64,000 bases of DNA from Gammaproteobacteria bacterium (lineage in GTDB: Bacteria; Pseudomonadota; Gammaproteobacteria; Burkholderiales; Rhodocyclaceae), in contig JARFTX010000011.1 in the NCBI GenBank assembly GCA_029289265.1, positions 1 to 64,000 of the forward strand, given 5' to 3'. Of this stretch, positions 1-12,447 are shown one piece after another. The notes beneath the pieces are model-generated. The model searched no databases, was not told the origin of the DNA, and saw only the letters and a program-made list of their open reading frames with translations. How positions within the stretch are numbered: the first letter of the stretch is position 1; each line of letters begins with the position of its first letter. The position numbers and the translations under genes were made by a program.

Positions 1-274
1 GCACCTTGACGAGCATCAGCTCGCGCTCGATGTGGGCCGACTCGGAGATGTCGACGACCTTGATGACCTCGACGAGCTTGTTCAGCTGCTTGGTGATCTG
101 CTCGATGATGTCGTCCGAACCGGTCGTCACGATCGTCATGCGCGACATCGATGCGTCCTCGGTCGGCGCGACGGTGAGCGATTCGATGTTGTAGCCGCGC
201 GCGGAAAACAGCCCCGACACGCGCGACAGCGCTCCGGATTCGTTTTCGATCAGCAGGGAGATGACATGTCTCAT
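1..274 (-). CDS. ilvN: Acetolactate synthase small (regulatory) subunit, 3' part missing
   Basis: Regulatory subunit of acetohydroxyacid synthase, the first common enzyme of valine, leucine and isoleucine synthesis. The visible N-terminal 91 codons begin [19 protein letters not shown] and form an ACT domain, the valine-sensing fold, with the family pattern [20 protein letters not shown]. The gene reads leftwards off the window edge, so its C-terminal half is not seen. It lies 145 bp downstream of the large-subunit gene on the same strand, the usual ilvI/ilvB-ilvH/ilvN order, so co-transcription is likely. Start is the ATG at 274-272. Family identity is very secure; whether it is called ilvH or ilvN is convention. 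Confidence 0.95.
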
Positions 275-320
275 ATTCAGCTCTTGCGAGAGTCGTTGTG
301 AGCCGCCCGTCGCGCCGGTG

Positions 321-338
321 CGAACCCGCCCGGGTTCG
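321..338. repeat. Perfect inverted repeat between ilv genes
   Basis: CGAACCCG, two bases, then CGGGTTCG: an 8-bp perfect inverted repeat in the 145-bp gap between the two acetolactate synthase genes. No T-run follows on the minus strand, so it is not a standard terminator. It could be an mRNA processing or stability hairpin that sets the subunit ratio, which is inference only. Confidence 0.4.
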
Positions 339-419
339 GCATCCGCGGACGACGGGGCCGACAGGCGCCCGTCCGGCGGTGCGGCGGCGAGGCCATCGCG
401 CGCCGCGGAATTGTCAGGG

Positions 420-2132
420 CTAGAGATCCTCGGCCGACAGGATCATCTGCGTCAGGCCTTGTCCGCCTCGAACCATGGGATAGACGTTCTCGGTCTGGTC
501 TACCTGAAAGTCGAGGAATACCAGGTCGTTCTTGCGGGCAAAGGCTTCGCGCAGCGCACCCTCGACGTCGCCGGGCTTATCCACGCGCAGGCCGACGTGT
601 CCGTAGGCCTCGGCGAGCCGGGCGAAATCCGGCAGCGAATCCATGTAGGACTCGGAGTAGCGGCCGCCATGGAACATTTCCTGCCACTGGCGGACCATGC
701 CGAGGTAGCGGTTGTTCAGGTTGCAGATCTTCAGCGGCAGGCGGAACTGCTTGCAGGTGGAGAGTTCCTGGATACACATCTGGATCGAGGCCTCGCCCGT
801 CACGCAGGCGACCGGGGCGCCCGGATTGGCGAGCTGCGCGCCCATCGCGTAGGGCAGCCCCACGCCCATGGTGCCCAGGCCACCGGAGTTCAGCCAGCGA
901 CGCGGCTTGTCGAAGCGGTAGTACTGGGCCGCCCACATCTGGTGCTGGCCGACGTCGGAGGTGATGAAGGCGTCGCCCCCGGTCACTTCCCACAGCTTTT
1001 CGATCACGTACTGCGGCTTGATGATCTCGTCGGAGTTGCGGTACTTCATGCAGTCCCGGGCGCGCCACTCTTCGACCTGCTTCCACCAGCCGGCGAGCGC
1101 ACCGGCATCGGGTCGCGTTGGCATCGCCTCGAGCTGACGGATCATCTCGTCGAGCACCTCGCGGACGTCGCCGACGATGGGCACGTCGACCTTGACGCGC
1201 TTGGAGATCGACGAGGGATCCACGTCGATGTGGATGATCTTGCGGGGTTCCTCGGCGAAGTGCGCCGGGTTGCCGATCACGCGGTCGTCGAAGCGGGCAC
1301 CCACGGCGAGCAGCACGTCGCAGTAGTGCATCGACATGTTGGCCTCGTAGGTGCCGTGCATCCCCGGCATGCCGAGGAACTGCCGGTCGGAGGCCGGGTA
1401 GGCACCGAGGCCCATCAGCGTGTTGGTGATCGGGAATCCGAGCATGCGCGTGAGCTTGGCGAGCTGTTCGGACGCATCCGACAGGATGACTCCGCCGCCG
1501 CTGTAGATCATCGGGCGCTTCGCTTCGAGCAGCAGCTGGATGGCCTTGCGGATCTGACCCTGGTGGCCGCGGACCACCGGGTTGTAGGAGCGCATCGGAA
1601 CCGCCTGCGGGTACTCGAACTCGCACTGCTGGATGGTGATGTCCTTGGGGATGTCGACCAGCACCGGACCGGGGCGTCCGGTGCGGGCGAGGTGGAAGGC
1701 CTTCTTGATCGTCGGCGCGATGTCTTGCACGTTCTTCACCAGGAAGTTGTGCTTGACGCACGGCCGAGTGATGCCGACGGTGTCGACTTCCTGAAAGGCG
1801 TCCTGGCCGATCGCCGCCGTCGGGACCTGGCCGGAGATGATGACCATCGGAATCGAATCGCAATAGGCCGTCGCGATGCCGGTGACGGCGTTGGTTGCAC
1901 CCGGGCCGGAGGTCACCAGCGCCACGCCGACGGCCTGACTCGAGCGGGCGTAGCCGTCGGCCGCATGCACGGCGGCCTGCTCGTGCCGGACAAGCACGTG
2001 CCGGACCTGATCCTGGTTGAACAGCGCGTCGTAGATGAAGAGAACCGCGCCACCGGGATAGCCGAAGACGTACTCAACCTTTTCTTCCTGCAGGCACCTG
2101 ATTACAATTTCGGCTCCGGACAGCGCCATCAC
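420..2132 (-). CDS. ilvI: Acetolactate synthase large (catalytic) subunit
   Basis: Thiamine diphosphate enzyme that condenses two pyruvates to acetolactate, or pyruvate with 2-ketobutyrate, for branched-chain amino acid synthesis. It has the full three-domain length (570 aa). The N-terminal pyrimidine-binding domain carries FGYPGGA and the catalytic glutamate in [15 protein letters not shown] (E51). The C-terminal cofactor domain carries [11 protein letters not shown] and the downstream [12 protein letters not shown]. The usual GDG that opens the ThDP/Mg motif reads Gly-Glu-Ala here (residues 446-448), see findings. Start is GTG at 2132 or the adjacent ATG at 2129; the ATG is equally plausible. 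Probable operon with ilvN downstream. Confidence 0.96.
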
Positions 2133-2164
2133 ATACTCGCTTTCAAAAAGATTCCAAACGACGA

Positions 2165-2193
2165 ACGTTACCGTCCGGGGGCTTTCAGGTCAA
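2165..2193 (-). promoter_or_regulatory. Candidate sigma-70 promoter for ilvI
   Basis: On the minus strand TTGACC (2193-2188), a 17-bp spacer and TAACGT (2170-2165) precede the ilvI start by about 33 bp. The -35 box is 5/6 and the -10 box keeps the important T-A-T positions. It is a sequence match only. Confidence 0.4.
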
Positions 2194-2242
2194 GGCTGTC
2201 GCCGTCCCGGAATGTGCCCGCCGCCCGCGGATTCACAAGGAA

Positions 2243-2812
2243 TTGCCACTGGCCTCCCGTGCAGAACTCTCCAGCTTTCTCGAAGATGTCGAAAAGCGTG
2301 CGTTCAAGCAGGCCGTCTACGCGCTGAGAAACGAGGAGGCCGCACTCGATGCGGTGCAGGATGCGATGCTGAAGCTCTCCGCGAGCTACGGCGACCGCCC
2401 GTGCGACGAGTTCCCGATGCTGTTCCAGCGCATCCTGCGCAACGTGATCTACGACGCGATGCGCCGGCGCAAGGTCCGCAACACCTGGGTCAGCCTGTTC
2501 TCGGCCTTGACCGGCGCGGATGATCCGGATGCCGATCCCCTCGAGATGCTCGGCGCCGGCACCGATCCGGACGGCCGGGACACGCCCCATGGCAGGCTCG
2601 AGCAGGCGCGGACGCTCCAAGTCATCGAGCGCGAGATCGCGCGATTGCCCGCCCGTCAACGCGAGGCCTTCCTGATGCGTTACTGGGAAGAGATGGACAT
2701 TGCCGAGACTGCTGCGGCGATGGGATGTTCGGAAGGCAGCGTCAAGACGCACTGCTCGCGCGCGACGCAAACGCTTGCGGCAGCACTCAAGGCCAGAGGG
2801 GTCGAGCTATGA
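2243..2812 (+). CDS. ECF-type RNA polymerase sigma factor
   Basis: Alternative sigma factor of the sigma-70 family (189 aa). Region 2 lies at about residues 25-80 (ALDAVQDAMLKL through LRNVIYDAMRRRKVRNTW), and region 4 at about 130-185 with LPARQREAFLMRYWEEM and the helix-turn-helix AAAMGCSEGSVKTHCSRA. The start is TTG at 2243 with AAGGA a few bases upstream. It overlaps the next gene by ATGA, so the membrane protein behind it is translationally coupled. That places it as the likely anti-sigma partner, although it has no recognised anti-sigma fold. It diverges from ilvI. Target genes are not visible. Confidence 0.9.
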   Translation: MPLASRAELSSFLEDVEKRAFKQAVYALRNEEAALDAVQDAMLKLSASYGDRPCDEFPMLFQRILRNVIYDAMRRRKVRNTWVSLFSALTGADDPDADPLEMLGAGTDPDGRDTPHGRLEQARTLQVIEREIARLPARQREAFLMRYWEEMDIAETAAAMGCSEGSVKTHCSRATQTLAAALKARGVEL

Positions 2813-3189
2813 ACGAAGTCGTCGTTGGGCGTCGGATTGCCATGCGGCTGTCGGCATCGGCGCGCGAACTCGACCCGGTCGTGGTCGAGCACCTGCGTGC
2901 CGCGCGAGCCCGGGCGCTCGAGCGGCAGCGGCCGCAGGGGTGGCTTGCCGTGCTGGCGACGGGCGTGGGCGCCCTCGGCGCGGGCTTCGCCCTGACGCCC
3001 GCAACGCGTTCCGCTGTCATGGCGGGACTGATCCTGGCGGTGTTCTTCGCCGGCAATCAGTGGGTCTCGGATTCGCGTCAGAGCGAGATCCTGCAGGTCG
3101 ACGCGGCGCTGCTGATGGACGACCTGCCCATCGACGCCTATCTCGATCCGGATTTCAAGACATGGTTGCTGCAAGGCTCGCGGTCCTGA
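2809..3189 (+). CDS. DUF3619 family membrane protein, possible anti-sigma factor
   Basis: A 126-aa protein resembling the DUF3619 family, which has no assigned function. Residues 1-42 are a charged cytoplasmic part (MNEVVVGRRIAMRLSASARE). Two hydrophobic segments follow at about 44-64 (GWLAVLATGVGALGAGFALTP) and 68-86, then a short acidic tail rich in Asp. The ATG at 2809 sits inside the stop of the sigma factor gene, and its 3' end overlaps the next gene by 28 bp, so the three genes form one tightly coupled unit. The size, topology and coupling to a sigma factor are what one expects of an anti-sigma factor. That function is inference. Confidence 0.75.
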   Translation: MNEVVVGRRIAMRLSASARELDPVVVEHLRAARARALERQRPQGWLAVLATGVGALGAGFALTPATRSAVMAGLILAVFFAGNQWVSDSRQSEILQVDAALLMDDLPIDAYLDPDFKTWLLQGSRS

Positions 3190-3605
3190 TCGTCGGGCTC
3201 GCGCTGGTCGGTACGGCCTGCGCCCAAGCGGCGGCGTCGGGGACCGATTGGCGCAGTCTCAGCCCCGCTCAGCGCGAGGTGCTGGCACCGCTCGCGGGCG
3301 ATTGGGCGGAGATGGGCGATGCGGGTCGGCGCCAGTGGATCGGCATTGCCGATCGTTTCGGCGGTCTGACCCCAGAGGAACAGCAGCGCATCCGCATGCG
3401 CATGAAAGACTGGGCAGACCTCACCCCGGAAGAGCGCGAGCGTGCCCGCGACCAATACCGCGCCTTGCGCAACGTCCCGCCCGAGCAGCGCGAAGCCTTG
3501 CGCGAGCAGTGGCAGCAGTATCGCAACCTTCCCCCCGAAGAGCGCCAGGTCCGCAAGGACACGCGCGGCGCTCGGGGCGGCACCAATCCTCCCGCGAGAG
3601 ACTGA
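3162..3605 (+). CDS. Exported DUF3106 protein with five 18-residue repeats
   Basis: A 147-aa protein with an N-terminal signal peptide (MVAARLAVLIVGLALVGTAC, cleavage probably near residue 25). Residues 33-122 are five consecutive units of exactly 18 residues. Three of the unit starts are LTPEEQQR, LTPEERER and VPPEQREA, and a sixth partial unit, LPPEERQ, follows. The units are rich in Arg, Glu, Gln and Trp and should be helical. DUF3106 is of unknown function. The composition and export recall Spy/CpxP-like periplasmic stress proteins, but homology is not claimed. It overlaps the upstream membrane protein gene, so it probably responds to the same sigma factor. Confidence 0.8.
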   Translation: MVAARLAVLIVGLALVGTACAQAAASGTDWRSLSPAQREVLAPLAGDWAEMGDAGRRQWIGIADRFGGLTPEEQQRIRMRMKDWADLTPEERERARDQYRALRNVPPEQREALREQWQQYRNLPPEERQVRKDTRGARGGTNPPARD

Positions 3606-3611
3606 TCACAG

Positions 3612-4103
3612 ATGGGGAAAAAATCCTCGGCAGGGCCCGCCATGCGGCCGGCCCCGGCGCCGCAGCGCGTTGTCGTCGAACTGGCCGGGTTGCGCCGCCG
3701 ACTGGCGAGCATGCTCTACGAGTCGCTCCTGCTGCTCGGTATCCTGGCGCTGACCTTTCTCGTGCCCTACCTGTTCCTCGGCGTGGGGTTCGGCGTGACG
3801 CTGCCGGGCTGGGTGCTGTGGCTTCACGTCTTCGGGGTGCTCGGCGCGTATTTTGTCTGGTACTGGACCCGACACGGCCAGACGCTGGCCATGCAGACCT
3901 GGAACCTCAAGCTGGTGCGCGAGCTCGACGGACTGCCGCCGCCGCCGGGCGTCGGCTGGGTCCGCTACGCGCTCGCCTGGCCGTCGGTGCTGTGCTTTGG
4001 CCTTGGGCTCGCCTGGGCCCTGATCGACCGCGATCGGCAGTTCCTGCACGACCGCTTGGCGGGTACCCGCATCGTCTTTCTTCCGCGCAAGCCGGCGGGC
4101 TGA
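3612..4103 (+). CDS. RDD family inner-membrane protein
   Basis: A 163-aa protein with an RDD domain. The Arg of the first helix is in LRRRLASMLYESLLLLGILA, and the family's Asp-rich end appears as LIDRDRQFLHDRLAGTRIV. Three membrane segments are visible (about residues 33-58, 62-86 and 118-137). RDD proteins are poorly characterised; some are linked to ion exchange or membrane stress. It starts six bases after the DUF3106 stop and closes the sigma factor cluster. The ATG at 3612 has no strong Shine-Dalgarno, consistent with coupling. A GC-rich hairpin follows the stop. Confidence 0.85.
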   Translation: MGKKSSAGPAMRPAPAPQRVVVELAGLRRRLASMLYESLLLLGILALTFLVPYLFLGVGFGVTLPGWVLWLHVFGVLGAYFVWYWTRHGQTLAMQTWNLKLVRELDGLPPPPGVGWVRYALAWPSVLCFGLGLAWALIDRDRQFLHDRLAGTRIVFLPRKPAG

Positions 4104-4108
4104 CCGGT

Positions 4109-4139
4109 GTTGCGCGCCGGGGCGATGAGCCGGCGCAAC
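4109..4139 (+). other. GC-rich hairpin after the RDD gene
   Basis: Arms GTTGCGCGCCGG and GCCGGCGCAAC pair with a two-base bulge around an 8-base loop just after the RDD stop codon. There is no T-run, so intrinsic termination is doubtful; it may only stabilise the 3' end of the sigma cluster mRNA. Confidence 0.3.
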
Positions 4140-4270
4140 CGCTTCCACCGGTCGGGAATCGTGCGTCGTCCCGGCGCGCGCGTCCTGGCCGGGCTGTACA
4201 TAGTGCAGTGCAGCGATGGGCCTCGCCATGGGGTAACATTGACTGGCCACTCACGACATTTCTATACGCC

Positions 4271-7138
4271 ATGCAGATCACCCGGGCAGCCGTAGATGAA
4301 TCCGACATGGGCCCAGGCGTCGCGAACGGCGGGGCGACCCGCCCATTTCACGCTCGCGATGCCGCCGAGGTACTGGCCGAATTCGAGGTCACCCGCGCTC
4401 GCGGACTGAGCAGCGACGAGGCGCGCGCGCGGCTCGAGCGCCACGGCCCGAATCTGCTGCCGGCGCCTCGCCGGCGCGGGCCGGTGCAGCGATTCCTGCT
4501 GCAGTTCCACAACGTGCTGATCTACGTCCTGATCGCGGCCGGCATCATCACGGCGCTGCTCGGCCACTGGATCGACAGCGGCGTCATCTTCGGGGTGGTC
4601 GTCATCAACGCCATCATCGGCTTCGTCCAGGAGGGCAAGGCCGAACGTGCGCTGGATGCGATCCGCAACATGCTGTCGCTGCACGCGCAAGTGCTGCGCG
4701 ACGGCCACCGCAAGGAGATCGCCGCGGAGGACCTCGTCCCGGGGGACATCGTGTTCCTGGCCTCCGGCGACAAGGTGCCGGCCGACCTGCGCCTCGTCGA
4801 CGTGCGCAGCCTGAGGATCGAGGAGGCGGCGCTGACCGGTGAATCGGTCGCGGTCGAGAAGGCGGTCGCCCCGGTCGCGGCCGACACGCAGTTGGGCGAT
4901 CGCAGCCCGATGGCCTTCTCCGGCACCCTGGTGACCTACGGCCAGGGGGCCGGCGTGGTCGTCGCGACCGGTGCCGGCACCGAGATCGGCCGGATCAGCG
5001 CGATGCTGAGTGAGGTCGAGGAACTGACGACGCCGCTGCTGCGCCAGTTGGGTGTGTTCGGTCGGTGGCTGACCTGGGCCATCCTGGCGGTGTCGGCGGT
5101 CGCCTTCGCCTTCGGCATCCTGCTGCGGGGCTACGGCGCCGACGAGATGTTCCTCGCGGCGGTGGGTCTCGCCGTCGCGGCGATTCCCGAGGGCCTGCCG
5201 GCGATCATGACGATCACGCTGGCGATCGGCGTGCAGCGCATGGCGCAGCGCAACGCGATCATCCGTCGCCTCCCCTCGGTCGAGGCGCTCGGTTCGGTGA
5301 CGGTGATCTGCTCGGACAAGACCGGCACGCTCACGCGCAACCAAATGACCGTGCAGCGGGTGCTGGCCGGCGATGGCGCCTATCGCGTGACTGGCGTCGG
5401 CTATGCCCCGCACGGGTCGTTCGAGCGTATCGGCACGCAGGACGATGATGGGGGCGTGCTGTTCGCCGCCCTCTTCGGCGAGGCGATCAGCCCAGCTGAA
5501 CGGGCGGGGCCGGCCGATGCGGCGATGGGAGAAGTCGACGCCGATCGAACCCCATCCTTGCAGGAGGCCTGCCGGGCAGGGCTGCTCTGCAACGATGCCG
5601 CCATCGTTCAGGAAGGTGAAGAATGGCGGCTGCGCGGTGATCCGACCGAGGGCGCGCTGATCTCCCTCGCAGGCAAGGCCGGGCTCGAGGCGCATTTCGA
5701 AGGCGAGGCGCTGCCCCGCACCGACGTGATCCCGTTCGAGTCCGAGCACCGATTCATGGCGACGCTGCATCACGACCACAAGGGGCGCGGGCTCATCTAT
5801 CTGAAAGGGGCGCCCGAGCGCGTGTTCGAACTGTGCTCGCATCAGCGCACTGACGAAGGCGACGTCGAACTCGATCCGGGCGCCTGGCAGAAGGCAATGG
5901 AAGCCACCGCGGCTGACGGCATGCGGCTGCTGGCGGTCGCGGTGCGCGAGGGCGAGGAAAGCCTCAAGGCGCTCGAGTTCGACGACGTCGAGCGCGGCGG
6001 CTTCACGCTGCTTGCGGTGTTCGGCTTGTCCGATCCCCCCCGCGACGAGGCGATCGAGGCGGTCGCGAACTGTCTCTCGGCCGGGATCCGGGTCAAGATG
6101 ATCACCGGCGACCATGCCGCGACGGCGCGCGCGATCGGGCAGCAGCTCGGCCTGGGGCGCGAGGTCAAGGCAGTCACCGGCGCCGAGATCGAGCGCCTGA
6201 GCGACGAGGAACTCGCGCGCATCGTCGTCGATACGGAGATCTTTGCGCGTGCCAGCCCCGAGCACAAGCTGCGGCTGGTCACGGCGCTGCAGGCCTGCGG
6301 CGAGGTCGTCGCGATGACGGGCGACGGCGTCAACGACGCACCCGCGCTCAAGCGCGCCGACGTCGGTGTCGCGATGGGCAACAAGGGCACCGAGGCGGCC
6401 AAGGAGGCCGCGGAGATGGTGCTCGCCGACGACAATTTTGCCTCGGTCGCGGCGGCCGTCGAGGAAGGGCGCACGGTCTACGACAACCTCAAGAAGGCGA
6501 TCGTGTTCATCCTGCCGACCAATGTAGGCCAGGCCGGCATCGTCTTCTTCGCGATCCTGCTGGGCATGACCATGCCGATCACGCCGGCCCAGATCCTGTG
6601 GGTGAACATGATCACGGCGGTCACGCTGGCGCTCGCGCTGGCGTTCGAGCGCTCCGAGCGCGACATCATGCGACGGCCGCCGCGCTCGCCCTCGGAGCCG
6701 ATCCTCGGCAGCTTTCTGATGTGGCGGGTGGTCTTCGTCGGGGTGTTGCTGGTGGCCGGGGGCATGGGCTTCTTCGTCTGGGAGCTCGATCGCGGTGCGA
6801 GCCTCGAAGTCGCCCGGACCATGGCGGTGAATGCGCTTCTGATGGGCGAGGTCTTTTACCTCTTCAACGTACGCAGCTTCACCGATCCGGTGCTCAACCG
6901 CCAGGGACTCACCGGAAACCGCTACGTGCTCGGCGCGATCGCCTTGCTGCTGGTGGCGCAGGGGCTCTTCACCTATGTGCCCTTCATGCAGACGCTGTTC
7001 GGTACGGCTGCCCTGGACGGAGCAGCCTGGTTGCGCATCGTCGGCTTCGGTGTCATCGTGCTGCTCGTGGTCGAAGCCGAGAAGGCCGTCCTGAAGCGCC
7101 TGATGGCGCCGCCAACCGAAGTGCGCACCACCTCCTGA
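4271..7138 (+). CDS. P2-type cation-transporting ATPase
   Basis: A 955-aa P-type ATPase of the Ca-ATPase-like (P2) group. It has an N-terminal cation ATPase domain (residues 20-90), an actuator domain with TGES (LTGESVAVEK), and a phosphorylation site DKTGTLTRNQMTV (D349). The M4 motif is AAIPEGLPAIMT, the hinge is MTGDGVNDAPALKRADVGVAMG, and the C-terminal membrane domain is complete. In M6 the sequence is ILWVNMITAVTLALAL: Asn779 and Thr782 match SERCA ligands, but the SERCA Asp800 position is Ala783. Calcium specificity is therefore doubtful and the ion cannot be named. Start is ATG at 4271; ATG 4307 is an in-frame alternative and neither has a strong ribosome site. Confidence 0.93.
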   Translation: MQITRAAVDESDMGPGVANGGATRPFHARDAAEVLAEFEVTRARGLSSDEARARLERHGPNLLPAPRRRGPVQRFLLQFHNVLIYVLIAAGIITALLGHWIDSGVIFGVVVINAIIGFVQEGKAERALDAIRNMLSLHAQVLRDGHRKEIAAEDLVPGDIVFLASGDKVPADLRLVDVRSLRIEEAALTGESVAVEKAVAPVAADTQLGDRSPMAFSGTLVTYGQGAGVVVATGAGTEIGRISAMLSEVEELTTPLLRQLGVFGRWLTWAILAVSAVAFAFGILLRGYGADEMFLAAVGLAVAAIPEGLPAIMTITLAIGVQRMAQRNAIIRRLPSVEALGSVTVICSDKTGTLTRNQMTVQRVLAGDGAYRVTGVGYAPHGSFERIGTQDDDGGVLFAALFGEAISPAERAGPADAAMGEVDADRTPSLQEACRAGLLCNDAAIVQEGEEWRLRGDPTEGALISLAGKAGLEAHFEGEALPRTDVIPFESEHRFMATLHHDHKGRGLIYLKGAPERVFELCSHQRTDEGDVELDPGAWQKAMEATAADGMRLLAVAVREGEESLKALEFDDVERGGFTLLAVFGLSDPPRDEAIEAVANCLSAGIRVKMITGDHAATARAIGQQLGLGREVKAVTGAEIERLSDEELARIVVDTEIFARASPEHKLRLVTALQACGEVVAMTGDGVNDAPALKRADVGVAMGNKGTEAAKEAAEMVLADDNFASVAAAVEEGRTVYDNLKKAIVFILPTNVGQAGIVFFAILLGMTMPITPAQILWVNMITAVTLALALAFERSERDIMRRPPRSPSEPILGSFLMWRVVFVGVLLVAGGMGFFVWELDRGASLEVARTMAVNALLMGEVFYLFNVRSFTDPVLNRQGLTGNRYVLGAIALLLVAQGLFTYVPFMQTLFGTAALDGAAWLRIVGFGVIVLLVVEAEKAVLKRLMAPPTEVRTTS

Positions 7139-7325
7139 CGGGCGCCGCGCGTACCGCCGAGGTCCGCGCGGCCCGCAAGCATCGGGGCACGAGGGTGCGT
7201 AGTTGCGCCCGGGCGCGCGGCACGGCCGGGTGGCCACGCTTCGCAGCGCGCCTTTCAGCACGAGCCGGTTTCGCCACGCCCCGACGAATTCACGATACGA
7301 GCGGCTGAAAAGACCGCCTTGAGCC

Positions 7326-10013
7326 ATGGAAAACAAGACGACCCCAACGATTCACCGCACGGATTACGCGCCGCTCGCCTGGACGGTGGAGCGCGTTGCG
7401 TTGCACTTTGCCCTCGCCCCCGACCAGACCGTGGTGACGAGCCGCCTCGAGTGCGTGCGCATGCCCGGTGTGCCCGACGCGCCCTTGCCTCTGCACGGCG
7501 AGGCGCTCGAGCGGGTGAGCCTGACGATCGACGGTGCGCCGCCGGCGCCCGGCCAGATCCACGAGACGGCCGCGGGCCTGGAGGTCCGCTTGGGCGGCGA
7601 GCGCGCCGTCCTCGAGATCGCGACCCGGATTGCGCCGCAGGCCAACACGACGCTCTCCGGCCTCTACATGTCGCACGGCGGCTACTTCACCCAGTGCGAG
7701 GCCGAGGGTTTTCGCCGCATCACCTACTTTCCCGATCGGCCGGACGTCATGGCGCGCTACACCGTCACGCTCGAGGCCGACCGTGAAAGCTGCCCGGTGC
7801 TGCTGTCCAACGGCAACCTGGTCGCCGCCGGCGAACTCGACGATGGCCGCCATTTCGCCCGCTGGGAGGATCCGCATCCCAAGCCCAGCTACCTGTTCGC
7901 GCTGGTCGCGGCCCGGCTGGTCGCGCTCGAGCGGACCCTCACGACGGGCTCGGGCCGGGAGGCGCTGCTGCAGGTGTGGGTCGAGGAGGGGAATCTCGAC
8001 CGTACTGCGCATGCGATGGATTCGCTGGTCGAGGCGCTGCGCTGGGACGAGGAGGCGTTCGGCCTCGAGCTCGATCTGGAGCGCTACATGATCGTCGCGG
8101 TAAGCGATTTCAACATGGGCGCGATGGAGAACAAGGGGCTCAACCTGTTCAACGCGAAATACGTGCTGGCGAAGCCGGACACCGCGACCGACGCCGACTA
8201 CGAACATATCGAGAGCGTGGTCGCGCACGAGTACTTCCACAATTGGACGGGCAATCGCGTGACCTGCCGCGACTGGTTCCAGCTCACGCTCAAGGAGGGC
8301 CTGACGGTCTTCCGCGACCAGCAGTTCAGTGCCGATCTGCTCGCCCGCGCGGCCGGCGAGGCGGCGGCGTCGGCGCGCGCGGTCAAGCGGATCGACGACG
8401 TGCGGGTGCTGCGCGCCGTGCAATTCGCCGAGGACGCCGGGCCGATGGCACATCCGATCCGACCGGACAGCTATCGCCAGATCGACAATTTCTACACCGC
8501 CACCGTCTACGAGAAAGGCGCCGAAGTGATCCGCATGCTGCACACGCTGCTCGGACACGAAGGCTTCCGCAACGGGATGGACTTGTACTTCAGCTACTAC
8601 GACGGCCAGGCGGTCACCTGCGACGATTTCGTCGAATGCATGGCCGAGGCGAACGGGCTCGATCTCGACCAGTTCATGCGCTGGTACGGCCAGGCCGGCA
8701 CGCCGGTGGTCGAGGCCAGTGGGGAGTGGGATGCGGCGCAATCGCGCTATCGGCTCACGCTCGCTCAGCGCACACCGCCGACCTCGGGCCAGTCCGAGGG
8801 GTCCGATCCGTTGCCGCTGGTGATTCCCGTCGCGGTCGGCCTGATCGGCCCTGACGGCGTGGACGTGCCGCTGCGTTTCGAGGGCGAGTCCCACGGCGGG
8901 GCGACCACTCGGGTGCTGGAGTTGACCAAACCACGGCAGAGCTGGACCTTCGTCGAGGTGCCCTGCGAGCCGGTGCCGTCGCTCCTGCGCGGTTTTTCCG
9001 CCCCGGTCAGGCTCGAACTCGACGAGTCGGACGAGCGGCTCGCCTTCCGCATGGCGCACGACGCCGACCCCTTCAATCGGTGGGATGCGGCCCAGCGCTA
9101 CGCCGAGCGGGTCGTGTTGGCGGCGACCGGGCAGGCCGAGGGGGCCGGCCTCCCCGAGCTATTCGTCGCCGCCTACCGGAAGTTGCTCACCGACGAAGCG
9201 CTCGATCCCGCCTTTCGTGCCCAGGCCTGCGCGTTGCCGGCCGAGAGCTACCTGCTCGAGCGCATGCATCCGGCCGATCCGGTTCGGCTGCGCGCCGCGC
9301 TGATGAGGTCGATGCGCGAACTCGGCGGGCGACTCGAGGACGACTGGTTGCGTCTCTACCTGGCACTGGAGGTGCCGGGCGCCTACCGCTACCACCCGTC
9401 GGACGCCGGTCGGCGCGCGCTGCGCAATCTGGCGCTGCGCTATCTCGCCGCGGCGGGCAGCGAAGAGGGATTGCGCCGCGCCCGGATCCAGTTCGAGTAC
9501 GGTGAGAACATGACCGAGTGCTTCGGCGCGCTCGCCGCCGTCGTTCAGAGCGAGAGCCCCGAGGCTGAAGGTGCGCTCGAGGTTTTTCATGCCCGATTCC
9601 GCGAGGACGATCTGGTGCTCGACAAGTGGCTGGCGCTGCAGGCCGGGACGTGGCGTTGGGCGGCGGCCGCACCGCCGGTGCTCGAGCGCGTGCGCGCATT
9701 GATGGCGAGCCCGGCCTACGTCGCGACCAATCCCAACAAGGTTTATGCCTTGCTCGGCACCTTCTTCAAGGCCAATCAGGCCGAGTTCCACGCCGCAGAC
9801 GGCAGCGGCCATGCCTTCTGGGCCGATCAGGTGATCGCGCTCGACCAAAGCAATCCGCAGGTCGCGGCCCGGCTCGTGCGCGCGGTCGAGAACTGGCGGC
9901 GTTATACGCCGGAGCTGCAGGCTTCGATCGCTCCCCAGCTCGAGCGCGTGCGCAAGGCAGGGCCTTCGGCCAACGTCGCGGAGATCGTCGACAAGGCGCT
10001 GGCGGGCGCGTAG
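7326..10013 (+). CDS. pepN: Aminopeptidase N (M1 family zinc metallopeptidase)
   Basis: Cytoplasmic broad-specificity aminopeptidase that trims peptides from protein turnover. The 895 aa fit the bacterial PepN length (E. coli about 870). The exopeptidase signature GAMENKGLNLFN is followed by the zinc site HEYFHNWTGNRVTC and the third ligand Glu in LTLKEGLTVFRDQ. After it come the Ig-like domain and the long helical C-terminal domain ending ANVAEIVDKALAGA. It stands alone 187 bp after the ATPase gene and is closed by a strong hairpin shared with the convergent CBS gene. Confidence 0.97.
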   Translation: MENKTTPTIHRTDYAPLAWTVERVALHFALAPDQTVVTSRLECVRMPGVPDAPLPLHGEALERVSLTIDGAPPAPGQIHETAAGLEVRLGGERAVLEIATRIAPQANTTLSGLYMSHGGYFTQCEAEGFRRITYFPDRPDVMARYTVTLEADRESCPVLLSNGNLVAAGELDDGRHFARWEDPHPKPSYLFALVAARLVALERTLTTGSGREALLQVWVEEGNLDRTAHAMDSLVEALRWDEEAFGLELDLERYMIVAVSDFNMGAMENKGLNLFNAKYVLAKPDTATDADYEHIESVVAHEYFHNWTGNRVTCRDWFQLTLKEGLTVFRDQQFSADLLARAAGEAAASARAVKRIDDVRVLRAVQFAEDAGPMAHPIRPDSYRQIDNFYTATVYEKGAEVIRMLHTLLGHEGFRNGMDLYFSYYDGQAVTCDDFVECMAEANGLDLDQFMRWYGQAGTPVVEASGEWDAAQSRYRLTLAQRTPPTSGQSEGSDPLPLVIPVAVGLIGPDGVDVPLRFEGESHGGATTRVLELTKPRQSWTFVEVPCEPVPSLLRGFSAPVRLELDESDERLAFRMAHDADPFNRWDAAQRYAERVVLAATGQAEGAGLPELFVAAYRKLLTDEALDPAFRAQACALPAESYLLERMHPADPVRLRAALMRSMRELGGRLEDDWLRLYLALEVPGAYRYHPSDAGRRALRNLALRYLAAAGSEEGLRRARIQFEYGENMTECFGALAAVVQSESPEAEGALEVFHARFREDDLVLDKWLALQAGTWRWAAAAPPVLERVRALMASPAYVATNPNKVYALLGTFFKANQAEFHAADGSGHAFWADQVIALDQSNPQVAARLVRAVENWRRYTPELQASIAPQLERVRKAGPSANVAEIVDKALAGA

Positions 10014-10052
10014 TCCCAAAGGACCAGACTGCCCGGTCCCCCGCGAAAACAG

Positions 10053-10080
10053 CGAAGGCCGGAGGGGACTCCGGCCTTCG
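10053..10080. terminator. Bidirectional hairpin terminator between pepN and the CBS gene
   Basis: A perfect 12-bp stem, CGAAGGCCGGAG with GGGA loop and CTCCGGCCTTCG, lies between two convergent genes. Flanking A and T tracts are weak, so it probably serves both directions as a GC-strong terminator. Confidence 0.8.
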
Positions 10081-10120
10081 TCATGGTTCGCCCCGGCGAG
10101 TTGCCGGGCGGCGATCTGGC

Positions 10121-10624
10121 TTACTTTTCGCTGCCAGCGGCGACGTGCGTGCCGGAATCGCCGGGCGGCGGATAGGTGGTCAGATCGCCGGCGATGTAGC
10201 TCGAGAGCTGGTGGATGGTCGACTCCTGCTCCTGGATGATCGCTTTGACCACGTCGCCGATCGAGATGATGCCGAGCAACTCGCCATCTTGCAGAACCGG
10301 CAGGTGACGGAAGCGGCGGTTGGTCATGGTCTGCATGACGGCTGCGAGCTGTTCGGTGGGCGCGGCGGTGACGACATTGCGGGTCATCACCTCGCCGACC
10401 TTGAGTTCGCGCGAATGCAAGCCCTTCAGCGCGACGTTGCGGGAGTAGTCGCGTTCGCTGAAGATCCCGACCAGTTTTCCGTCGTCGATGACCAGCAGGG
10501 CCCCGACGTTGTGCTTGGCCATCACTCCCAGCGCCTCGAAGACGCTGACCCCCGACGTGACCGAGTAGGCCGCGCCGCCCTTCTGGTCAAGCACTTGCTT
10601 GACGGTGATCGATACCGCTGTCAT
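10121..10624 (-). CDS. CBS-domain pair protein
   Basis: A 167-aa cytoplasmic protein made of two CBS motifs (about residues 10-65 and 75-135), for example VFEALGVMAKHNVGALLVID and FRHLPVLQDGELLGIISIGD. Stand-alone CBS pairs bind adenosine nucleotides and act as energy sensors; the partner of this one is unknown. The start is ATG at 10624, chosen because AGGAGG lies eight bases upstream on the minus strand. An in-frame upstream ATG at 10705 would add 27 residues without such a site. The tail after residue 140 is short and polar. Confidence 0.92.
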   Translation of the reverse strand: MTAVSITVKQVLDQKGGAAYSVTSGVSVFEALGVMAKHNVGALLVIDDGKLVGIFSERDYSRNVALKGLHSRELKVGEVMTRNVVTAAPTEQLAAVMQTMTNRRFRHLPVLQDGELLGIISIGDVVKAIIQEQESTIHQLSSYIAGDLTTYPPPGDSGTHVAAGSEK

Positions 10625-10752
10625 CGTTTCTCTCCCTCCTTGCTCTTGTCGCTCGTGGCCGGCATGACGTTGCATTCTCTCACAGCTTGTAACGATTATT
10701 GACACGCAGGGCGTTGCCGTCGTTCCCGCCGGTTCGCGCCGGCGTGCCCGGT

Positions 10753-11631
<879 letters not shown>

Positions 11632-12447
11632 TCAGTAAGCGTGTTCCGGTCCGGGGAAGCTGCCGTCCTTGACCGCCGCGACGTAGCGCGCGACCGCTTC
11701 CTCGATGCTCTGCGCACCGTTCATGAAGTTTCTGACGAAGCGCGCCGTCTTTCCGGGATAGACGCCCAGCATGTCGTGCAGCACGAGTACCTGACCATCG
11801 CAATCGGCGCCTGCGCCGATTCCTATGGTCGCCATCGACGTCAGGCTGGCGGTGATCTCGGCGGCGAGCACGGCCGGCACCATCTCCATGACCATGAGCG
11901 CGGCGCCGGCCTGTTCGAGCGCGAGCGCATCGCTGCGCAGCTGTGCGGCGCCGCTCTCACTGCGCCCCTGCACGCGGTAGCCGCCGAGCTGGTGTACGGA
12001 TTGAGGGGTAAGTCCGATGTGGGCACAGACCGGCACTCCGCGCTCGACCAGGAAGCGCACCGTCTCGGCCATGGCGGTGCCGCCTTCGAGCTTGACCATT
12101 TGCGCGCCGGCGGCCATCAGGCGGCCGGCATTGCGCAGGGCAACCGCCGGGCTCTCCTGGTAGGTGCCGAATGGCATGTCGGCGACGATGAAGGCGCGGG
12201 CGCTGCCGCGCGCGACGCATTCAGTGTGATAGACCATGTGCTCGATCGTCACGGGCAGCGTCGATTTCTGCCCCTGCAGCACATTGCCCAACGAATCGCC
12301 GATCAACAGCACGTCCACGCCGGCCCGCTCGAGCAGCGCCGCGAAGCTCGCGTCGTAACAAGTGAGCATCGCGATCTTGCGCTTCTCGGCGCGCATCTTG
12401 CCGAGCTCGAAGAGGGTGATCGGCTTCTGGTCCTGAAGATAGCTCAT
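11632..12447 (-). CDS. panB: 3-methyl-2-oxobutanoate hydroxymethyltransferase
   Basis: Transfers a hydroxymethyl group from methylene-tetrahydrofolate to 2-ketoisovalerate to make ketopantoate. The 271-aa TIM-barrel protein has the metal-site DSLGNVLQG, the [12 protein letters not shown] loop, [16 protein letters not shown], and [20 protein letters not shown] precedes the ATG. It is upstream of panC and downstream of the kinase gene on the same strand, so one transcript from pcnB through panC is possible, although there is a 138-bp gap before panB. Confidence 0.97.

Follow-up and report, generated by a model that had tools for sequence, protein, structure and literature searches.

A conserved operon of an ECF sigma factor, DUF3619 and DUF3106 in beta- and gammaproteobacteria, with an apparent CTG start of the sigma gene

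Introduction

In Cupriavidus, the CnrH-CnrY-CnrX system consists of an extracytoplasmic function (ECF) sigma factor, a small single-pass anti-sigma factor with a short cytosolic part, and a periplasmic helical sensor. A similar overall architecture, judged from this description, is found in an operon near the start of the DNA analyzed here, positions 1 to 64,000 of contig JARFTX010000011.1 (assembly GCA_029289265.1, Gammaproteobacteria bacterium, Burkholderiales, Rhodocyclaceae), a 64,000-nucleotide stretch that is referred to below as the window. The operon encodes an ECF sigma factor, a membrane protein of the DUF3619 family, an exported helical repeat protein of the DUF3106 family, and an RDD-family membrane protein. 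It differs from CnrYXH in that sequence and fold searches of the PDB detected no strong similarity of DUF3106 to solved folds. SbrI-SbrR of Pseudomonas aeruginosa is an ECF sigma/anti-sigma pair tied to envelope stress (PMC10418997).

The Streptomyces gene sigR is described as starting at a GTC behind a strong ribosome-binding site, as having been misannotated from a GTG inside that site, and as being coupled to rsrA by an ATGA overlap; initiation factor 3 (IF3) represses it, and replacement of the GTC by ATG, GTG, or TTG yields excess SigR (PMC5472188). The operon in the window shares with SigR-RsrA an ECF-type sigma factor, an apparent noncanonical start, a strong ribosome-binding site, a misannotated canonical codon at that site, and an ATGA overlap with a (here proposed) anti-sigma gene that has its own ribosome-binding site. 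The two differ in the start codon itself, GTC there and CTG here. RsrA is described as zinc containing and redox sensitive. Furthermore, conservation is reported in Streptomyces only (PMC5472188), whereas CTG is found here across 49 coded families.

The same gene order and overlaps occur in Acinetobacter baumannii (locus L362: sigma factor, 106-amino-acid protein, and DUF3106 at 38 bits), where the promoter TGTCAACC-N16-CGTTATA precedes the sigma gene, as in many other gammaproteobacterial operons. The A. baumannii locus differs in that its sigma factor is 37.6% identical and its annotated neighbors do not include RDD. It may be the operon of the ECF sigma factor SigAb, which is reported to be paired in A. 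baumannii with the anti-sigma proteins AabA and AabB. Genes for a CSLREA-domain protein and rhombotarget A follow the L362 operon on the opposite strand (4847-7516). A preliminary description of the window had called the pathway uncharacterised; this holds insofar as a literature search that covered few subscription papers found none naming DUF3619 or DUF3106, but not for the arrangement as such, given its occurrence in A. baumannii.

Results

The loci collected included 80 named ones fetched by the sigma factor, 60 fetched by DUF3106 alone, and 40 fetched by DUF3619 alone, the 60 being stronger matches in genomes not previously covered. Removal of duplicates, of three loci with weak sigma scores (L011, L125, and L175), and of three without the anchor motif (L196, L217, and L251) left 216 distinct loci, 78 of them named, from betaproteobacteria and gammaproteobacteria. 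The order sigma-DUF3619-DUF3106 was found in 210 of the 216, followed by RDD in 124 and without it in 86. The remainder comprised two loci without a recognized DUF3619 (L210 and L214), one that was truncated (L100), and three (L041, L043, and L049) with sigma and RDD only. The last three come from metagenome-assembled genomes, and their sigma genes have the CTG; in L043, an apparent remnant of the DUF3619 start lies just 3' of the sigma gene. The linkage was also evident from the partner genes, as both sigma and a DUF3619-like gene were present in 54 of the 60 loci fetched by DUF3106, and sigma and DUF3106 were present in all 40 fetched by DUF3619. The six exceptions (L206, L208, L210, L211, L214, and L216) missed sigma and/or the DUF3619-like gene, and three of them were short stretches at contig ends.

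In the window, the sigma TGA (2810-2812) and the DUF3619 ATG (2809-2811) share the 4 bp ATGA, the DUF3619 gene, which ends at 3189, overlaps DUF3106 (ATG at 3162) by 28 bp, and RDD (ATG at 3612) follows the end of DUF3106 at 3605 after a gap of 6 bp, so that the cluster laid out in the preliminary description can be read directly in the sequence. The 4-base overlap between sigma stop and DUF3619 start recurred in 178 of 211 loci. Given this recurrence and the constancy of gene order, the cluster is not a product of chance; among the 80 named loci, the outer neighbors varied around a conserved core. The widely shared module of ECF sigma factor, membrane protein, and exported helical protein, which the preliminary description had recognized from the gene order and had proposed to look for in other genomes, is real and conserved, with very strong linkage; the lack of conserved linkage that would have refuted it was thus not observed.

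Taken singly, DUF3619 had matches in 85 of the 120 genomes sampled from the order and in 20 of 229 genomes from the class (18 of these being weak and mostly N-terminal matches), and DUF3106 was found in 101 of 369 genomes of the class. No gammaproteobacterial locus showed an RDD gene, but the stretches there reach only about 0.6 to 1.5 kb beyond DUF3106, so that its absence is incompletely covered. In 22 of 67 gammaproteobacterial loci (for example, L004 1820-2092 and L020 1775-2029), the DUF3619 and DUF3106 genes are separated by a gene for a small, acidic, exported protein that has an LLEFLGxWE-like motif.

All four proteins were assigned to their families above the cut-offs (Table 1). The whole-protein score of the sigma factor exceeded the NF006550/PRK09047 cut-off of 173; region 4 alone scored 63.3 bits (Pfam cut-off, 25.7), and region 2 alone scored 23.0, just below the cut-off of 24. 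The gathering scores passed by DUF3619 and DUF3106 are 22.2 and 24.3, respectively. DUF3619 proteins have the conserved pattern ExxF...L...LD..T..RL..AR..AL ahead of the membrane span and DxxLLxDxLPxxAYxDxxFxxWL behind it. By simple hydropathy, 188 of 208 relatives have a single span, 16 have no span, and 4 have two; a two-helix topology is not supported as a property of the protein family, and the second hydrophobic stretch is a trait of the window copy. An AlphaFold2 model of DUF3619 (mean predicted local distance difference test [pLDDT] score, 82.5) contained helices at residues 3-18, 23-39, and 45-57, a long helix at 64-103, and a tail helix at 114-124, with a predicted template modeling (pTM) score of 0.36, at which the mutual arrangement of the helices is not trusted. 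The DUF3106 model (pLDDT, 87.8; pTM, 0.62) showed a signal-like first helix followed by repeated short helices. The mean net charge was +13.6 for DUF3106 (n = 199) and -5.5 for the last 30 residues of DUF3619 (n = 208).

As noted in the preliminary description, no usual anti-sigma fold is visible in the middle member: DUF3619 matched none of the known anti-sigma families in Pfam at cut-off. The resemblance of 13 of 89 DUF3619 members to the NCBIfam anti-sigma model NF052375, below cut-off (best, 3.5e-6) and partly via the span, is a hint, no more. In position, the DUF3619 gene resembles those of transmembrane anti-sigma factors, lying directly 3' of the sigma gene and overlapping it, and DUF3619 is probably the anti-sigma factor of the module. 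For DUF3106, the LTXXQ/CpxP family (PF07813) matched 2 of 87 members at E ≤ 0.01 (best, 0.0031). Sequence and fold searches of the PDB gave no parent fold for either family, which leaves room for families absent from the PDB.

CTG is a start codon rarely used by bacteria. A structural study of CUG initiation gives AUG, GUG, and UUG as 82, 14, and 4% of the starts in 69 genomes (PMC11497404). In the aligned N termini of the 216 sigma factors, CTG stood at a fixed place, nine codons upstream of a conserved Phe; this position held CTG in 122 loci, ATG in 46, TTG in 10, and another codon in 38. No in-frame stop lay between this position and the conserved Phe in any of the 122 CTG loci or the 46 ATG loci. 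In one TTG locus (L220), a stop in frame right behind the TTG shows that this codon cannot be the start.

The CTG could instead be an ordinary internal leucine codon, with translation starting at an ATG, GTG, or TTG elsewhere, in the window at the TTG at 2243 that the preliminary description had chosen. A canonical codon is indeed present upstream in the open frame in 55 of the 122 CTG loci, and in 9 of the other 67, one lies within six codons downstream. In those 67 loci, however, a stop is met upstream in frame before any ATG, GTG, or TTG (within two codons in 11 of them), and in 58 of them, the first canonical codon downstream lies past the conserved Phe, so that a start there would remove conserved residues. 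Leucine codons at this position, which is otherwise mostly ATG, were CTG in 122 of 133 cases, TTG in 10, and CTT in one, and never CTC, CTA, or TTA, whereas in the rest of the sigma genes CTG accounts for about 47% of the leucine codons, and at two nearby conserved Leu positions it was found in 57 of 199 and 76 of 208 cases; this contrast disfavors an internal leucine. In addition, well-spaced Shine-Dalgarno (SD) cores, mostly 6 to 9 nt away, preceded the CTG in 83 of the 122 loci, compared with 41 and 8 of 122 in two control stretches. In the window, AAGGA (2237-2241) is spaced 7 nt from the CTG at 2249 but only 1 nt from the TTG at 2243. We regard an internal leucine as highly improbable, and the sigma gene of the window appears to start at CTG 2249, not at TTG 2243. 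The sequence pattern alone gives a noncanonical start behind a strong ribosome-binding site, as in sigR.

As a control from the neighboring gene, the codon at the 4-base overlap with the sigma stop TGA was ATG in 166 loci, GTG in 24, CTG in 6, and TTG in 4 (n = 200). The median predicted energy of SD pairing before the sigma gene was -5.7 in CTG loci and 0.0 in ATG loci, whereas that before DUF3619 showed no clear difference (means, -6.5 and -5.6; p 0.13). CTG loci were found in 49 of 82 coded families, plus the named Rhodocyclales and Sterolibacteriaceae, and the tree requires at least 13 changes between CTG, ATG, and TTG; ATG loci without a strong SD were spread over several family codes. 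Among the 38 loci with other codons, a canonical start lay only a few codons away in 18 and further away in 17, and 3 had none. A few of these 38 resemble ATA, ACG, or shifted CTG starts, and possible ATA (L182, L188, and L197) and ACG (L186 and L187) starts lie behind SD-like sequences. A literature search that covered part of the matching literature and few subscription papers found no CTG/CUG start linked to an ECF sigma factor.

Upstream of the sigma gene, many gammaproteobacterial operons have an ECF-like pair, TGTCAACC-N15/16-CGTT. The best upstream dyad occurred in 34 of 134 representatives, compared with at most 14 in five shuffles. A promoter matrix trained on 27 loci, two of them from Burkholderiales (L252 and L254), recovered 8 of 37 further gammaproteobacterial loci at a score of ≥10 and 0 of 37 shuffled ones. 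The exact pattern was then counted in 20 gammaproteobacterial genomes picked for TGTCAAC in their sigma regions: it occurred 40 times, by our count 19 times at the sigma gene, versus 15 for the reversed control, and the corresponding counts for 20 genomes lacking a DUF3106 match were 3 and 14. The 21 sites away from sigma are alone not far above the control, so the case for them lies in recurring targets. Such second sites preceded genes for long DUF4382 lipoproteins and, in four genomes (G327, G197, G345, and G167), for exported RLDxRGDRI-repeat proteins; that in L276 preceded a repeat protein gene with a sub-cut-off DUF3106 match, and several were without a likely target. Genes for exported RLDxRGDRI-type repeat proteins also lie ahead of the sigma gene in 7 of 69 gammaproteobacterial loci; the loci noted for such proteins, either there or behind the sigma-type promoter, are L004 (123-863), L020 (80-841), L264, L273, L286, and L355.

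A family search with PF14321 (DUF4382) gave 49 scored loci, 30 of them from the 35 matches of one search. All 8 loci of a subfamily with the signature FxQYxDMxEFL, itself derived from members found by the pattern, scored ≥20.8; six were new, and two were already known from the pattern search. With a site defined as a score of ≥14, or as the exact pattern in L334 (a short contig end), other DUF4382 loci had one in 5 of 23 cases in sigma-positive genomes (L321, L334, L343, L344, and L349), in 1 of 15 in DUF3106-lacking genomes, and in 0 of 3 in Burkholderiales. This promoter and the DUF4382 subfamily form a predicted regulon on the gammaproteobacterial side, and its predicted targets are mostly exported or lipid anchored, which fits an envelope response. 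The envelope-stress pathway suggested in the preliminary description is partly supported in this respect; in the lineage of the window, the promoter was not found.

A second upstream motif, GGTCAAG, occurred in 47 of 134 representative upstream regions. As a sigma promoter in betaproteobacteria it was rejected, since it reads as the -35 box of the divergent ilvB gene. In 50 Burkholderiales genomes, TGTCAACN15-17GCGTT gave more sites than the reversed control. A recurring form, TGTCAACGCxTGGGTxTGCCxxGGCGTT, was found at G000:C37:71533-71560 and in about a dozen Burkholderiales genomes; it is probably a conserved coding stretch, and for this reason no Burkholderiales regulon was drawn from the pattern.

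The surroundings of the operon in the window are included in Table 1. The ilvB-type gene lies divergently next to the sigma gene in 79 of the 80 named loci. The preliminary description had proposed the cation ATPase as a linked target, but it was found in 2 of the 80, some of which are shortened by contig ends, and its start at 4271 or 4307 lies 167 or 203 bp past RDD, which leaves it outside the closely packed cluster; the proposal is rejected. Rfam gave no match at gathering scores in positions 1-12000, and a scan for sigma-70 promoters gave a chance-level result.

Table 1. Features of the operon and its surroundings in the window
Feature	Position	Strand	Evidence
ilvB-type acetolactate-synthase-like thiamine pyrophosphate (TPP) enzyme; context, outside the module	420..2132	-	Pfam TPP_enzyme N/M/C
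GGTCAAG (minus strand CTTGACC), probable -35 box for divergent transcription of the ilvB-type gene	2188..2194	-	Inference
AAGGA, Shine-Dalgarno-like, for sigma	2237..2241	+	Sequence
Proposed sigma start codon CTG	2249..2251	+	Sequence comparison
ECF sigma factor, PRK09047/NF006550 family	2249..2812	+	NF006550, 264.4 bits
DUF3619, proposed anti-sigma factor: two-helix N terminus followed by a membrane span and an acidic tail at the C terminus	2809..3189	+	PF12279, 93.5 bits
DUF3106, putative periplasmic partner or sensor; exported protein of helical repeats	3162..3605	+	PF11304, 122.4 bits
RDD-family membrane protein, fourth gene (Burkholderiales side)	3612..4103	+	PF06271, 57 bits
P-type cation ATPase, mere neighbor outside the module	4307..7138	+	Pfam

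Discussion

The operon may be explained as an ECF sigma switch in which DUF3619 would act as the anti-sigma factor, DUF3106 as the reader of its tail, and an envelope signal as the input to a sigma factor started at CTG, and we consider this explanation, as a whole, likely. The CTG start behind a strong SD would give the sigma factor at a low, tuned rate, and DUF3619 would be translationally coupled to it by the ATGA overlap and would also be made from its own ribosome-binding site; by analogy with sigR, the CTG may limit the sigma factor relative to DUF3619. As a single-pass inner-membrane protein, DUF3619 would hold the sigma factor through its cytoplasmic two-helix N terminus, while DUF3106, which is exported and mostly basic, would read the short acidic periplasmic tail of DUF3619. 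When an envelope signal arrives by way of DUF3106 and this tail, DUF3619 would let go of the sigma factor, which in gammaproteobacteria is predicted to transcribe its own operon and genes for exported lipoproteins and repeat proteins from the promoters described above.

Several observations weigh against this explanation. The three sigma-RDD loci (3 of 216) retain the sigma factor without DUF3619 and DUF3106. The window copy of DUF3106 has a net charge of merely +3, signal peptide included. DUF3619 gave no match in a Foldseek fold search at E ≤ 10 and no profile match to anti-sigma factors in the PDB, and DUF3106 gave no fold match at E ≤ 0.001. In A. baumannii, the middle protein has no PF12279 match, its profile comparison is not significant, and the sigma gene is annotated from an ATG. 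The promoter was found in about half of the gammaproteobacterial representatives, the matrix recovered 1 of 70 further betaproteobacterial loci beyond the training set, and no such promoter was found 5' of the sigma gene in the window. One of the eight subfamily loci (L378, genome G064) has the target gene and promoter in a genome where a close sigma factor was not found, and no DUF4382 was found in genome G000. Finally, the compensation between CTG and SD is confounded by ancestry, with one starred independent pair and five on the best tree.

Some of these observations would also fit other arrangements. DUF3619, DUF3106, and RDD could be co-transcribed effectors of the sigma factor, which would itself be controlled at the level of transcription or by a protein encoded elsewhere. 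Two findings would suit effectors: DUF3619 matches none of the known anti-sigma folds or families at cut-off, and L041, L043, and L049 retain sigma without DUF3619 and DUF3106. The recurrent 4-base overlap, the joint conservation of exactly these three genes (sigma, DUF3619, and DUF3106) in lineages that are very far apart and have changing outer neighbors, and a DUF3619 topology of the transmembrane anti-sigma type argue against it, and we think the effector arrangement distinctly unlikely. The joint loss of DUF3619 and DUF3106 from the same three loci, together with their adjacency in 210 of 216, is also what would be expected if the two formed a two-part inhibitor, both parts being required to hold the sigma factor off, rather than an inhibitor and a sensor. 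The two anti-sigma proteins reported for Acinetobacter would likewise suit such an inhibitor. DUF3106, however, looks exported and could thus act solely through DUF3619; a two-part inhibitor is in our view unlikely, yet deserves consideration beside the switch with separate inhibitor and sensor.

A wider reading of that switch takes the CTG as an ancient regulatory CUG start in beta- and gammaproteobacteria: discrimination by IF3 would hold the sigma factor below its anti-sigma factor, the switch would sense initiation fidelity as well as the envelope, and lineages with AUG would have dropped the SD to keep the sigma factor low. We put this forward tentatively, as a possibility that we somewhat doubt.

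In our reading, the operon belongs to a general class of ECF switches that is already known; its partner proteins are unnamed, and the conserved CTG start is its unusual part. If the proposed explanation is true, it would assign roles to DUF3619 and DUF3106, two families that have had no known function, and would provide a promoter code together with a first regulon. What is described for sigR in Streptomyces, a sigma gene that begins at a noncanonical codon, would then be a wide and old device, and one that annotation easily gets wrong, since gene finders expect ATG, GTG, or TTG.

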